From Jiangella mangrovi (GTDB taxonomy: Bacteria; Actinomycetota; Actinomycetes; Jiangellales; Jiangellaceae): a DNA stretch of 64,000 bases. The notes below the pieces were generated by a model. That model made no database searches and was not told where the DNA came from. It was given only the letters and a program-made list of their open reading frames with translations. Where the stretch lies: the NCBI RefSeq assembly GCF_014204975.1, contig NZ_JACHMM010000001.1, positions 1 through 64,000 on the forward strand. The letters run 5' to 3'. The first letter of the stretch is position 1. Each line of letters starts with the position of its first letter. Positions 36,907-40,338 of the stretch are shown here, piece after piece. A program made the translations under genes and the position numbers.

Positions 36907-38982
36907 GTGCCTGCCGTGGAGCACCTCACCGACCGGAACGCCTTCCTGCTGCGGGGCGACGGGTTCGCCTACGCGCTCGCCGTCACCCCTGACGGCGACC
37001 TGCGCCACCTGCACTGGGGCGGCCCGATCCCACCCGACGACGTCGCCGTCCTGCTGGCCGACGACGCGCGCGACTTCGGCTCCAACACGTGGTCCAGCCC
37101 GCGCGCGCACACCGAGGAGCTGGTCGCTCATGGCGGGCGGCGGCTGGACGAGACCGCGCTCAAGGTGGAGTTCGCCGACGGCGTCCGGGCGCTCGATCTC
37201 GCCGTCACGTCGTCGGCGGTGAGCCCGGACGGCGACGAGCTGACGGTCCGGCTCGCCGACCGGCACTACCCGTTCGCCGCCGACCTGCACTACCGCGTCC
37301 GCGGCGGCGCGCTGGAGCGGTGGACGACGCTGGTGAACGACGGCGACACCGCGGTCGTCCTCGACCGGGCGTACTCCGCGAGCTGGGGGCTGCCGTGGCA
37401 GCCGCGCTGGGAGGCGACCTGGCTGGCCGGCATGTACGCGGCGGAGACCCAGGTGACGCGCCGTCCGCTCGGGCCGGGCCGGCTGGTGCTCGAGTCGCGG
37501 CGCGGCATCCCCGGGCACGCGGCCCAGCCCTGGCTGGCGCTCGACGCGGGCGCGGGCGACGAGGCCGGCGCCGTCTGGAGCGTCGCGCTGGCGTGGAGCG
37601 GTTCGTGGCGCCTGGCCGCCGAGCTCGCCCACGACGGCCGGCTGCATGTCACCGCCGGGGTCAACGACTTCGACCTGCGGCATCCGCTGGCGCCGGGCGC
37701 GTCGTGGACCACCCCCGTCACCGTCGGCGTCTACACGTCCGCCGGCCACGACGACCTCACCGACCGCTGGCACGCCTACGAGCGCCGCTTCGTCGTGCCG
37801 CGCCCCGGCGTCGTCCGGCCGGTGCTCTACAACAGCTGGGAGGCGACGTTCTTCGACGTCCGCCCGGAGTCGCAGCTCGAGCTGGCCCGGCGGGCGGCCG
37901 GCCTGGGCGCCGAGCTGTTCGTCCTCGACGACGGCTGGTTCACCGGCCGCGACGACGAGAGCGCCGGCATCGGCGACTGGACGCCGTCGCCCACGGCCTT
38001 CCCCGACGGCCTGAAGCCGCTGGCCGACGAGGTGCACGCGCTCGGCATGCGGTTCGGCGTGTGGGTCGAGCCGGAGGCCGTCAGCCCCGACAGCGACCTC
38101 TTCCGCGCCCACCCGGACTGGATCCACCAGTGGCCGACCCGCCCGCGCACGCTCGCCCGGCAGACCCACCTGCTGGCGCTGGGCATGGCGGACGTCCGCA
38201 ACCACCTCGTCGAGACCCTGGACGCGCTGTTGTCGTCGGCGCCCATCGACGCGCTGAAATGGGACCTCAACCGGCCGCTGACCGAGGCGTCGGACGGCTG
38301 GATCGGGTCCGTCGAGGGGTTCTACGAGGTGATCGACCGGCTGCGGGCGCTGCATCCGGACGTCTGGATCGAGAGCTGCGCCTCCGGCGGCGGCCGGGCC
38401 GACCTCGGCGTGCTGTCGCGCACCGAGTGGGTCTGGCCGAGCGACCAGACCGACGCCCTGGAGCGGCTGTCGATCCAGCACGGGTACGCCTACGCCCACT
38501 CGCCGCACACCATGATGGCCTGGGTCACCGACTCCCCCACCTACCTCACGAAGCGCGAGATCCCGCTGCGGTTCCGCTTCCACTCGGCGATGACCGGGCT
38601 GCTGGGGATCGGCGGGAACCTGGCTGTGTGGCCGGACGCCGAGCTGGCCGAGGCGGCCGAGTACGTCGCCCAGTACAAGCGGGTGCGAGAGACGGTGCAG
38701 TTCGGCTCGATGCGGCGGCTGAGCGACGCGCCCGACGACGTGACGGCGCTCAGCTACCGGTCGCCGTCGGGGCACCAGCTCGCCGTGTTCGCCTTCGCGC
38801 CGTCCGTGCGGCACCTGCGCCGGACGGTGCTGCTGCGGCTGCGCGGCCTCGACCCGGCGGCCGTGTATGTGGATGCGGGGACGGGGGCGCGGTACAGCGG
38901 TGCGCTGCTCATGCACCACGGCCTGCGGGTCGGCCTGGTCGGCGACTACGCCAGCGACCTGGTCGTTCTCGACCGCGCCTGA
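36907..38982 (+). CDS. Alpha-galactosidase, glycoside hydrolase family 36
   Basis: A 691-residue enzyme without a signal peptide, so cytoplasmic. The TIM-barrel core has VLYNSWEATFFDV, LFVLDDGWF, FGVWVEPEAVSPDSDL, nucleophile D453 in LKWDLNR and acid/base D513 in PSDQTDALERL. CASGGGRADLG is another GH36 hallmark. A beta-sandwich N-terminal domain (about 1-280) and a C-terminal beta domain complete the usual 690-730-residue layout. The GTG start coincides with the predicted transcription start, so translation is probably leaderless. It would split alpha-galactosides taken up by the cell. Confidence 0.93.
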   Translation: MPAVEHLTDRNAFLLRGDGFAYALAVTPDGDLRHLHWGGPIPPDDVAVLLADDARDFGSNTWSSPRAHTEELVAHGGRRLDETALKVEFADGVRALDLAVTSSAVSPDGDELTVRLADRHYPFAADLHYRVRGGALERWTTLVNDGDTAVVLDRAYSASWGLPWQPRWEATWLAGMYAAETQVTRRPLGPGRLVLESRRGIPGHAAQPWLALDAGAGDEAGAVWSVALAWSGSWRLAAELAHDGRLHVTAGVNDFDLRHPLAPGASWTTPVTVGVYTSAGHDDLTDRWHAYERRFVVPRPGVVRPVLYNSWEATFFDVRPESQLELARRAAGLGAELFVLDDGWFTGRDDESAGIGDWTPSPTAFPDGLKPLADEVHALGMRFGVWVEPEAVSPDSDLFRAHPDWIHQWPTRPRTLARQTHLLALGMADVRNHLVETLDALLSSAPIDALKWDLNRPLTEASDGWIGSVEGFYEVIDRLRALHPDVWIESCASGGGRADLGVLSRTEWVWPSDQTDALERLSIQHGYAYAHSPHTMMAWVTDSPTYLTKREIPLRFRFHSAMTGLLGIGGNLAVWPDAELAEAAEYVAQYKRVRETVQFGSMRRLSDAPDDVTALSYRSPSGHQLAVFAFAPSVRHLRRTVLLRLRGLDPAAVYVDAGTGARYSGALLMHHGLRVGLVGDYASDLVVLDRA

Positions 38983-39256
38983 GGTTGGCCGGGTGTGATG
39001 AGGTTCTGCCGGGGTGGTGAGGTGGGCTCCCCGGGCACGCCTCGCCCCTTCCGTGCCCGTTTCGTCCCGCTTCGGTGGCTGTGGACAGCGATGATCATCA
39101 AGGATCGCGTACATCACCAGGATTACCCGAGCCTCAACACGATTACAGGCCTCGTGATGCACGGGTAAACGTGGTGGGCGGCCCAAAAAACCGCCCCGTA
39201 ATCCCACATCGCGGACGCAAAGCGGCCGCCGCGCCCCCGCACCCGTCGCCAGACTC

Positions 39257-39390
39257 CCCCCGTCCCCCTGATAGCTGCCCGTTCTTAGGCCGCACGCCTG
39301 CGGGTCAAGCGGTCCCTCCGCGCGAAGCGCCATCGGTCCGCTTGAGGCGCAGGTGCGCGGCCAAGAGAATGGGCAGCAGGGGGACGGGGG
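39257..39390. repeat. 134-bp imperfect palindrome
   Basis: Perfect 14-bp outer arms (CCCCCGTCCCCCTG at 39257-39270 and its complement at 39377-39390). Inward, matched blocks follow with small bulges: GCTGCCC/GGGCAGC, GGCCGC/GCGGCC, CCTGCG/CGCAGG and TCAAGCGG/CCGCTTGA, leaving about 25 bases of loop near 39312-39336. It has no open frame of note. It could fold as one long stem in RNA or DNA. A MITE-like or REP-like element, or a structured regulatory RNA, are the main options. Confidence 0.8.
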
Positions 39391-39424
39391 AACCCAACGC
39401 AACCACGCGAGACCCCACAGAACC

Positions 39425-39453
39425 TTGACATGGAATGAGGTTCCGTGTGTGCT
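39425..39453 (+). promoter_or_regulatory. Promoter with IclR-type operator (copy C)
   Basis: -35 TTGACA (39425-39430), 17-bp spacer, -10 TGTGCT (39448-39453). The operator ATGGAA-TGAGG-TTCCGT (39430-39446) fits the consensus in both halves. Transcript start near 39460 leaves a leader of about 36 bases with a GGAGA ribosome binding site before the PIG-L ATG. Confidence 0.65.
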
Positions 39454-39495
39454 CCTGCCAGGCGCTGGCGCACCTCGGACACACCGGAGACCTCC

Positions 39496-40338
39496 ATGAA
39501 GATCATGACGATCTATGCCCACCCGGCCGACACGATCACGAACTGCGGCGGCACCCTCGCGCTGCACGCGGCACGCGGCGACGAGGTCGTCGCGCTGATC
39601 CTGAGCCACGGCGGGCGCATCCACGCGAACAAGTACGCCGAGGAGTGGCGCAAGGACCACCCGGACGACGACATCGCGACCGCGGGCCTGGACGACATCG
39701 TCGCGAACAAGAAGAACGAGCTCGAGCGGGCCGCGGACATCATCGGCATCAGCAAGATCATCACGCTCGACCACGAGGACACGTACGCGACGGTCCAGGA
39801 GGAGATGGTCGAGCAGATCGCCGAGCAGATCGCGATCGAGCAGCCCGAGATCGTCATCGCCGACCACCCGCGCAACCCGGCGTACTTCGACCCGCACTAC
39901 GTCGCGACCGGCATGGCGCTGGCCGCACTGTCGCGGGCCGGCCTCTACCTGCGCAACCTCGACGGGCGCGACGAGGTCCCCGTGCGGCAGGTGTTCCTGA
40001 CCGGGCTGCCGGTCTACAACCTCGACGCGCTGAGCCTGAACGGGCTGCGCAACGACACCTACGTCGACATCACCGACGTGGTCGGGACGAAGCTGGCCGC
40101 CATGGACCAGTTCGTCAGCCAGGGGTACCACGGCGTGTTCGCCCGCAAGCTGGTCGAGTCGTACAACGGCGAGTCGGGCCGGGCCGCGGGCGTCAACTTC
40201 GCCGAGGCGTTCGTGCGGCTCTACAACGAGACGCACGCGCACCTGCCGGTCACCGACGCCGCGCTGGCGACCGACCCGCTGACCAGGCACATCGCCTACT
40301 CCTCGGTCAACCTGCGGGGAACCTTCCCGGTACCGTGA
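39496..40338 (+). CDS. PIG-L family (LmbE-like) zinc deacetylase
   Basis: A 280-residue de-N-acetylase-like protein. The N-terminal motif IYAHPADTITNCGGTLALHAARGDEV is a variant of the family's AHPDD-x(n)-GG (here HPAD). LILSHGG, a C-terminal zinc-ligand candidate in VIADHPRNPAYFDPHYVATG and the downstream helical region complete the domain. The family removes N-acetyl groups from GlcNAc-type sugars or conjugates. The change of HPDD to HPAD leaves one acidic residue and could tune or weaken activity. The ATG at 39496 is chosen from its GGAGA site; the longer frame upstream runs into the promoter. Confidence 0.82.
   Translation: MKIMTIYAHPADTITNCGGTLALHAARGDEVVALILSHGGRIHANKYAEEWRKDHPDDDIATAGLDDIVANKKNELERAADIIGISKIITLDHEDTYATVQEEMVEQIAEQIAIEQPEIVIADHPRNPAYFDPHYVATGMALAALSRAGLYLRNLDGRDEVPVRQVFLTGLPVYNLDALSLNGLRNDTYVDITDVVGTKLAAMDQFVSQGYHGVFARKLVESYNGESGRAAGVNFAEAFVRLYNETHAHLPVTDAALATDPLTRHIAYSSVNLRGTFPVP

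Follow-up and report, generated by a model that had tools for sequence, protein, structure and literature searches.

The palindrome at 39257-39390 of the Jiangella mangrovi window, the whole stretch of 64,000 nucleotides that was analysed, lies between a GH36 melibiase gene (36916-38982) and a PIG-L family gene (39496-40338). The question raised by this locus is whether the palindrome is a non-autonomous mobile element or REP-like repeat, a structured RNA that controls the operon beginning at 39496, or an accidental structure.

Dispersed copies and covarying arms

CCCCCGTCCCCCTG at 39257-39270 and CAGGGGGACGGGGG at 39377-39390 are perfectly complementary in inverted orientation, which bears out the perfect 14-bp ends described in the initial annotation. 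The fold of the 134-bp palindrome contains 54 pairs at −116.8 kcal/mol, compared with a mean of −72.75 kcal/mol for shuffled sequences (z = −10.2), and none of 200 shuffles equals it. Instead of the loop of about 25 bases supposed earlier, the apex pairs too (GCGC-GAA-GCGC) and leaves a 3-nt terminal loop. The gene caller returns zero genes in 38982-39496, in agreement with the lack of coding sign noted before.

A BLAST search of the own genome (Jiangella mangrovi, 7,162,500 bp, one contig) with the palindrome, in which 40 of the 126 first-look candidates were scored, listed 65 matches, a number that reflects matching of the palindromes in reverse as well. The 5'-arm motif gave 42 + 36 = 78 matches at up to two mismatches, with 0 for the reversed-pattern control, and 46 + 43 matches at up to three mismatches, with 3 + 0 for the control. 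Three of the 78 matches (195002, 5460947 and 5662360) resemble chance, and the near-perfect palindrome L262 is counted on both strands; therefore, the genome holds about 75 copies. From the places found at up to three mismatches, eight weak ones were left out (two with two and six with three mismatches), and two analysed places (the pair near 195002, and 6935201) yielded zero features. Mean identity is 77% for 45 own-genome copies compared with each other, and 20 units of J. rhizosphaerae have a best interior match of 92%; neither value points to recent movement.

The motif matches in the 12 Jiangella genomes number 221, 104, 78, 75, 73, 62, 36, 33, 15, 14, 4 and 2, with 0-2 for the controls, so that six of the 12 genomes carry 62-221 matches. 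Among the 120 loci listed in the scan of genome_contigs, 118 belong to Jiangella, one to Kribbella antiqua and one to a Planctomycetaceae MAG, and the last was rejected as a copy, as the hairpin is absent by eye. Kribbella antiqua gave five matches with E < 1e-20 and a short sixth, corresponding to about five copies; by eye, both arms and internal blocks are common with the Jiangella hairpin, and no gene-bearing copy was found among the Kribbella loci examined. An exact gapped pattern applied to a class sample of 393 genomes matched 10, all of them Jiangella, and 0 of the 381 others, where the pattern is insensitive and also misses the Jiangella genomes G002 and G005. The viral contig collection, searched for phage carriage, gave 0 exact matches, and literature searches by title gave nothing on this repeat in Jiangella or Kribbella. 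Many dispersed copies had been named as the sign of a mobile or REP-like element; copies of this kind were found in the own genome and in relatives, and this reading is favoured.

An alignment of 29 copies (28 from the own genome and one from Kribbella) supports 46 pairs, and 96.2% of the alignment cells pair, compared with 35-45% for slid structures. Changes on both sides are seen in 19 of the 46 pairs, where the shuffled mean is 9.3 and 0 of 500 shuffles reach 19; the structure was predicted from the same alignment, and the shuffle control leaves the relatedness of the copies in. The initial annotation had reserved the name of an accidental structure for a single copy whose pairing is not conserved in relatives, and the dispersed copies and covarying arms exclude this. 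No supporting point was found for an accidental or locally formed structure, and the fold far beyond the shuffles, the dispersed copies and the covariation already refute it, so that its probability is practically negligible.

Inverted hairpin pairs around variable palindromic modules

Comparison with the relatives modifies the extent given earlier: the 134-bp palindrome is real, and the inserted unit is larger, at about 38983-39424. The parts in the window are the following.

38983..39424, no strand: whole mosaic insertion of about 440 bp, from just after the stop codon of the melibiase gene to the promoter region of PIG-L (ends accurate to a few bases)
38999..39033, minus strand: outer flank of the missing left hairpin, TGAGGTTCTGCC...GGGCTCCCC, matched by the sequence on the outer side of intact left hairpins such as those of L012 (1472-1505) and L028 (1471-1505)
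39033..39034, no strand: junction, at which other copies (L012, L026, L028 and others) have a left hairpin of about 135 bp in minus orientation
39034..39058, no strand: inner flank of hairpin type A, GGGCACGCCTCGCC..., common to other own-genome copies (GGGCACAGCC in the copies of G008)
39080..39106, plus strand: core motif TGTGGACAGCGATGATCATCAAGGATC, whose right-part pattern was counted in 12 genomes; also beside AbiEi/DUF559-like genes
39112..39176, no strand: core (middle) hairpin, palindromic and free of strand bias; in other copies, 39115-39176 is matched on the opposite strand
39240..39256, no strand: inner flank of hairpin type B, CACCCGTCGCCAGACTC, conserved in own-genome copies (CGTCGCCACACTCCCCC in the copies of G008)
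39257..39390, plus strand: 134-bp hairpin, the right hairpin, type B, from fold, BLAST, alignment and covariation
39391..39424, no strand: outer flank of type B, ending CAGAACC; similar outer flank in other copies
39425..39453, plus strand: promoter-like block of the PIG-L operon (TTGACA, 17 nt, TGTGCT, with GGAA..TTCC inside), outside the insertion

The window copy has the right-hand hairpin and is missing the left-hand one; comparison with other copies shows that it is the right half of a larger mosaic unit. The order in a complete unit is left hairpin (minus), inner flank A, core module, optional palindromic modules, inner flank B and right hairpin (plus). Using a codon-statistics gene caller, 66 sites were mapped in 56 of 57 stretches (L211 was without a feature), consisting of 22 two-hairpin, 36 one-hairpin and eight core-only sites. 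All 22 two-hairpin sites have the '- +' order, i.e. a fixed inverted orientation, and the 13 units read in the relative G008 have the same outer hairpins around different palindromic modules. The unit ends are GGTTC...GAACC in the own genome and are different in J. rhizosphaerae; the ends vary between species.

Several minor features of the units were observed. The left hairpins of L265 (at 7119040) and L249 (at 5489841) in the own genome are reduced to a small stem; together with the units lacking hairpins, this looks like decay of palindromes by internal deletion. At L262 (3529-3659), the right lower arm mirrors the left arm exactly in reverse complement, even in the bulge, which looks like arm-to-arm correction by template switching. 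The core modules of the own genome lie more often on the contig plus strand (33 versus 16 sites; 48 versus 32 pattern matches).

The mosaic insertion at 38983-39424 is missing in all seven relatives in which both genes are adjacent, and their gap is 14-91 bp. Overall, the unit upstream of the PIG-L gene was seen in none of the 10 relatives with a PIG-L orthologue (G002 is without one), a comparison that comprises the seven with the melibiase gene 14-91 bp upstream, two that run into contig ends (L387 and L393, about 200 bp) and one with another neighbour (L396). In the own genome, a unit of 778 bp also separates the pccB stop codon from that of maf, and it was found in none of the 10 relatives in which these genes are adjacent; in G007, pccB is not adjacent, and this genome stands outside the comparison. 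The computed gap between pccB and maf is at most 9 bp in G006, G004, G011, G001 and G010, with an accuracy of a few bases, and 30 bp in G002. At the pccB/maf and PIG-L sites, no target-site duplication was visible by eye against the empty sites. The unit of site L262 is missing in one relative (L354).

The pccB/maf gap holds other inserts of 66-165 bp in G008 (L443), G009 (L445), G003 (L446) and G005 (L450), which are palindromic by eye in at least three cases; that of G005 is a solo palindrome and resembles those beside L123, an AbiEi-like gene of the same genome. Upstream of PIG-L, at a distance of 100-200 bp, G011 (L387) and G005 (L393) have yet another palindrome by eye, GTTGATCNTGGAGT...ACTCCAAGATCAAC.

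At 11 own sites, the relatives carry hairpins in the same gap, in comparisons that drew on loci selected for carrying hairpins. The closeness ranks of these same-gap hairpins across species are 18, 36, 10, 59, 52, 51, 60, 60, 24, 4 and 11 of 66; as they are not each other's closest copies, they are unusable as orthologues, and they may result from independent insertion or from conversion between copies.

None of the 80 mapped hairpin features overlaps a called gene by more than 20 bp. The gaps bearing the element (n = 66) consist of 33 convergent, 28 codirectional and five divergent ones, compared with 25, 185 and 58, respectively, for the other gaps of the same stretches and the window (n = 268), which corresponds to an enrichment in convergent gaps (Fisher p = 1.6e-12) and a depletion in divergent gaps (p = 0.008). 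For the 70 hairpins with a recognised outer arm (the other 10 features, which were short hairpins or had no recognisable outer arm, were dropped), 55 face the 3' end of a gene at a median of 34 bp (range 3-374), and 15, including the window copy, face a 5' end at a median of 176 (range 100-398). The sequence GAACC, with up to one mismatch, abuts the stop codon in 19 of the 50 copies within 70 bp of one, and is found at other offsets in 203 of 5203 cases (3.9%). TGA is the stop codon beside 45 of these 50 copies, a share similar to that among all called genes (242 of 297).

The palindrome is probably a terminal hairpin, the right-hand one, of an intergenic mosaic repeat that is non-autonomous, belongs to Jiangella and resembles REP, BIME and REPIN repeats in its working. 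The earlier suggestion of a non-autonomous mobile element or REP-like repeat finds support in the dispersed copies, the empty gaps of the relatives and the extragenic layout in inverted pairs.

Strand bias in the stem, absent from two other types of palindrome

Free MFE folds of either strand gave an ambiguous comparison, with G-U counts about equal on both strands and the plus strand more stable in 50 of 62 own copies and 135 of 202 copies of relatives, and were replaced by a symmetric self-alignment, in which each copy is aligned to its own reverse complement and both strands are treated alike. Copies containing N and the Kribbella and MAG loci were set aside. The expectation is that without constraint, or when the palindrome acts as a double-stranded cruciform, G.T and A.C departures are equally frequent on one strand.

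In positions 1-40 of the 5' arm, the ratio of G.T to A.C on the plus strand is 143:10 for the 62 own copies and 426:80 for the 202 copies of relatives, counts that are not independent, since the copies share ancestry and a large part comes from a few fixed positions. Positions 28-39 give 61:7 and 209:17, respectively, and other mismatches in the first 40 positions (142 own, 379 in relatives) are about as frequent as G.T. The controls lack this skew: the ratio is 31:34 (30 own) and 158:163 (111 in relatives) for the core hairpin, and 21:15 and 15:16 for the AbiEi-type palindromes (16 loci on each side). Beyond position 40, in the apex and its CA-rich loops, the skew is reversed (12:149 own and 33:404 in relatives), which, like the about equal G-U counts of the free folds, speaks against a strand-specific fold. 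As the stem has an excess of G.T while the other palindromes of the mosaic are near 1:1, one strand seems to fold. That one strand of the 134-bp hairpin folds in single-stranded form, as RNA or ssDNA, is moderately supported by these counts. Comparing G.T with A.C departures thus needs nothing but sequence to suggest the folding strand of a palindrome, and it separates the 134-bp hairpin from its symmetric neighbours.

The strong fold, the covariation and the strand bias are also what a structured RNA controlling the PIG-L operon, the other alternative of the initial annotation, would have in its favour. The hairpin, however, ends at 39390, 34 bp before the TTGACA-17-TGTGCT block (39425-39453). 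This block, which starts as TTGACATGG at 39425 immediately after the mosaic insertion, is present as TTGACATGGAA in L387, L389, L392, L393, L394 and L396, with the hairpin seen in none of them, and is missing in L388, L390, L391 and L395. Since the hairpin lies upstream of the block and the block is kept in six of 10 hairpin-less relatives, the hairpin is probably outside the PIG-L leader RNA. Moreover, the 20 genes at ten other copy sites are unrelated by appearance, judged by eye, and no Rfam family fits; the one match, at chance level (E = 0.35; 18.9 bits where the gathering score is 95), lies outside the palindrome. Control of the PIG-L operon by such an RNA is therefore very improbable. 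The consensus scanner flagged no promoter at the 39425-39453 block. Four relatives have a gap of 14-16 bp between melibiase and PIG-L and no TTGACA block, so that a promoter of the PIG-L operon itself seems to have been acquired or lost.

For 55 of 70 hairpins, the favoured strand is antisense to the neighbouring gene and sense to read-through from the far side, an orientation that fits either an ssDNA substrate or a direction-specific barrier. A barrier is the basis of a further explanation, in which the repeat is a mobile terminator or insulator, retained mainly because its hairpins, as RNA made by transcription across the unit, stop antisense run-on into the opposite gene of a convergent pair; it could have spread by any means, and selection at the RNA level would give the strand bias. 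The convergent gaps at 33 of 66 sites are in line with this explanation, as are the neighbour's stop codon at a median of 34 bp in 55 of 70, the pccB/maf gap, which measures a few bp in five relatives and is filled by other inserts in four more, and the fit of the strand bias to the strand transcribed by far-side read-through. However, the scanner for intrinsic terminators (hairpin and T run) found 0 in 38900-39600, 15 of the 70 hairpins face a 5' end, and the unit of the window is codirectional with a single hairpin left. A terminator or insulator is, accordingly, possible and rather doubtful, both in its supposed action on run-on and in the supposed RNA-level origin of the bias.

For the mosaic repeat preferred here, the plus strand of the hairpin would be folded and recognised as a single strand, most likely as ssDNA, and a candidate strand-specific transposase or nuclease would copy the two-hairpin unit into intergenic gaps. 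The copies would persist where they are harmless, in convergent gaps and at gene 3' ends, and in these places they may in addition be direction-specific barriers to transcription, because read-through from the far-side gene transcribes the favoured strand. The different palindromic inserts in the same convergent gap of relatives make the question of junk in a safe place versus a recruited insulator directly testable.

Candidate mobilisers and related repeat systems

A RAYT or IS200 enzyme was rejected as the mobiliser, as PF01797, the one profile used in the genome-wide transposase search, was found in none of the 12 Jiangella genomes, while five of 14 control genomes were positive. Without the known enzyme, the repeat must have, or must once have had, a different mobiliser. 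Six long-spaced hairpin pairs were read (L161, L218, L230 and L259 in the own genome; L168 and L169 in G008), and all contain transposase genes, which belong to four unrelated types, IS110, DDE_Tnp_1, Mutator and rve. Because the types are unrelated and some recur in several units, these IS genes were read as later inserts and not as an autonomous partner, although one of these types may have a role, which weighs slightly against the preferred explanation. Several IS types inside the units recur in two or more of them; the units seem to attract IS insertions, or else their movement is aided by one of the IS.

The repeat shares with BIMEs and REPINs the extragenic palindromes in inverted pairs, the spacer modules, the mosaic make-up, the convergent and codirectional gaps, the proximity to 3' ends and the high copy number. 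It differs in that the Jiangella hairpins are about 134 bp long, compared with 20-40 bp for REP units (PMC3733652), that the internal modules are palindromes of other families, that RAYT (TnpAREP, a Y1 transposase) occurs in 0 of 12 Jiangella genomes, and that the host is an actinomycete, where the main text of PMC3733652 does not contain the word actinobacteria. REPs are described there as bearing an unpaired GTAG or CGTC tag and as lying in gaps whose flanking genes are convergent or codirectional, and the CGTC-tagged class as lacking a dedicated transposase (PMC3733652). The CGTC-tagged REPs resemble the Jiangella repeat in their palindromic form, dimers, convergent or codirectional gaps and lack of an associated transposase found; however, their tag is an unpaired end, whereas the Jiangella CGTC pairs with GACG in the stem base and a conserved GATA bulge makes up what is unpaired in the lower stem, and the sequence and size differ. 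As the size, the unpaired tag and the RAYT of a BIME are not found in Jiangella, the repeat is regarded as working like a BIME and is not classed as one.

A MITE or the 127-bp RU-1 is similarly non-coding, about 130-500 bp long, inverted in structure and mainly intergenic; for the Jiangella repeat, no parent transposon was found in the genome-wide PF01797 search and the six long-spaced pairs and no target duplication by eye at two sites, and two hairpins with modules stand in place of one palindrome. RU-1 is also called ERIC. The subterminal hairpins of IS200/IS605 are a strand-specific hairpin signal, which would fit the G.T bias of the Jiangella stem and not the opposite skew of its apex, and their Y1 transposase was not found there (PF01797, 12 genomes). 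Integron attC sites have the core sites RYYYAAC/GTTRRRY at their ends, and an attC site was rejected on the palindrome ends CCCCCGTCCCCC/GGGGGACGGGGG, read by eye. The present results extend REP/BIME-like genome repeats to a group in which the known mobilising enzyme was not found.

A different candidate mobiliser is an AbiEi/DUF559-like gene bracketed by palindromes, for which the 134-bp hairpin would be a passenger module. The core motif of the window, TGTGGACAGCGATGATCATCAAGGATC, recurs in reverse complement at the 5' flank of these genes, and TGTGGACAGC.ATGATCATCAA.GATC is common to the mosaic core and this flank. Each of the 12 genomes has 2-12 matches to the family (AbiEi_4, E = 2.6e-6), counting distant ones, and many of its genes are bracketed by palindromes of about 50-58 bp. 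These AbiEi-type palindromes compare, left against right, at 0.78 within a locus and 0.36 between loci (0 of 10000 permutations), in the 17 of 29 loci that passed the filter. On the other side, they give no BLAST match (E <= 1) to the 134-bp hairpin, G008 has 75 hairpin matches and only 10 core-motif matches with other modules in its units, and the DUF559 profile scores below the Pfam cut-off. Mobilisation of the mosaic by this gene is, on balance, unlikely. The core of L086 and L098 resembles a complete palindrome with the same outer arms; going by such likeness, it is the core module, not the 134-bp hairpin, that ties to the AbiEi/DUF559-like gene family.

Returning to the REP-like repeat, we tentatively suggest, with considerable doubt, that the system evolved without RAYT: a putative ssDNA enzyme would act on the 134-bp strand-specific hairpin, which brackets palindromic modules, and some of these modules would be offshoots of single-gene mobile elements, in each of which an AbiEi/DUF559-like gene for a putative nuclease lies between two copies of a private palindrome.

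A PDB search with P0001 gave three weak matches (E = 0.22-0.46), two of them named acetyltransferases, which were taken as chance. AbiEi_4/DUF559-like loci were read at L095 (1527-2516), L081 (1543-2529), L106, L117, L118, L121, L123 and others. In their bracketing palindromes, e.g. CCATGATCATC...GATGATCATGG, the inner arms vary between elements and match from left to right, and the palindrome-bracketed gene is possibly a new single-gene mobile element.
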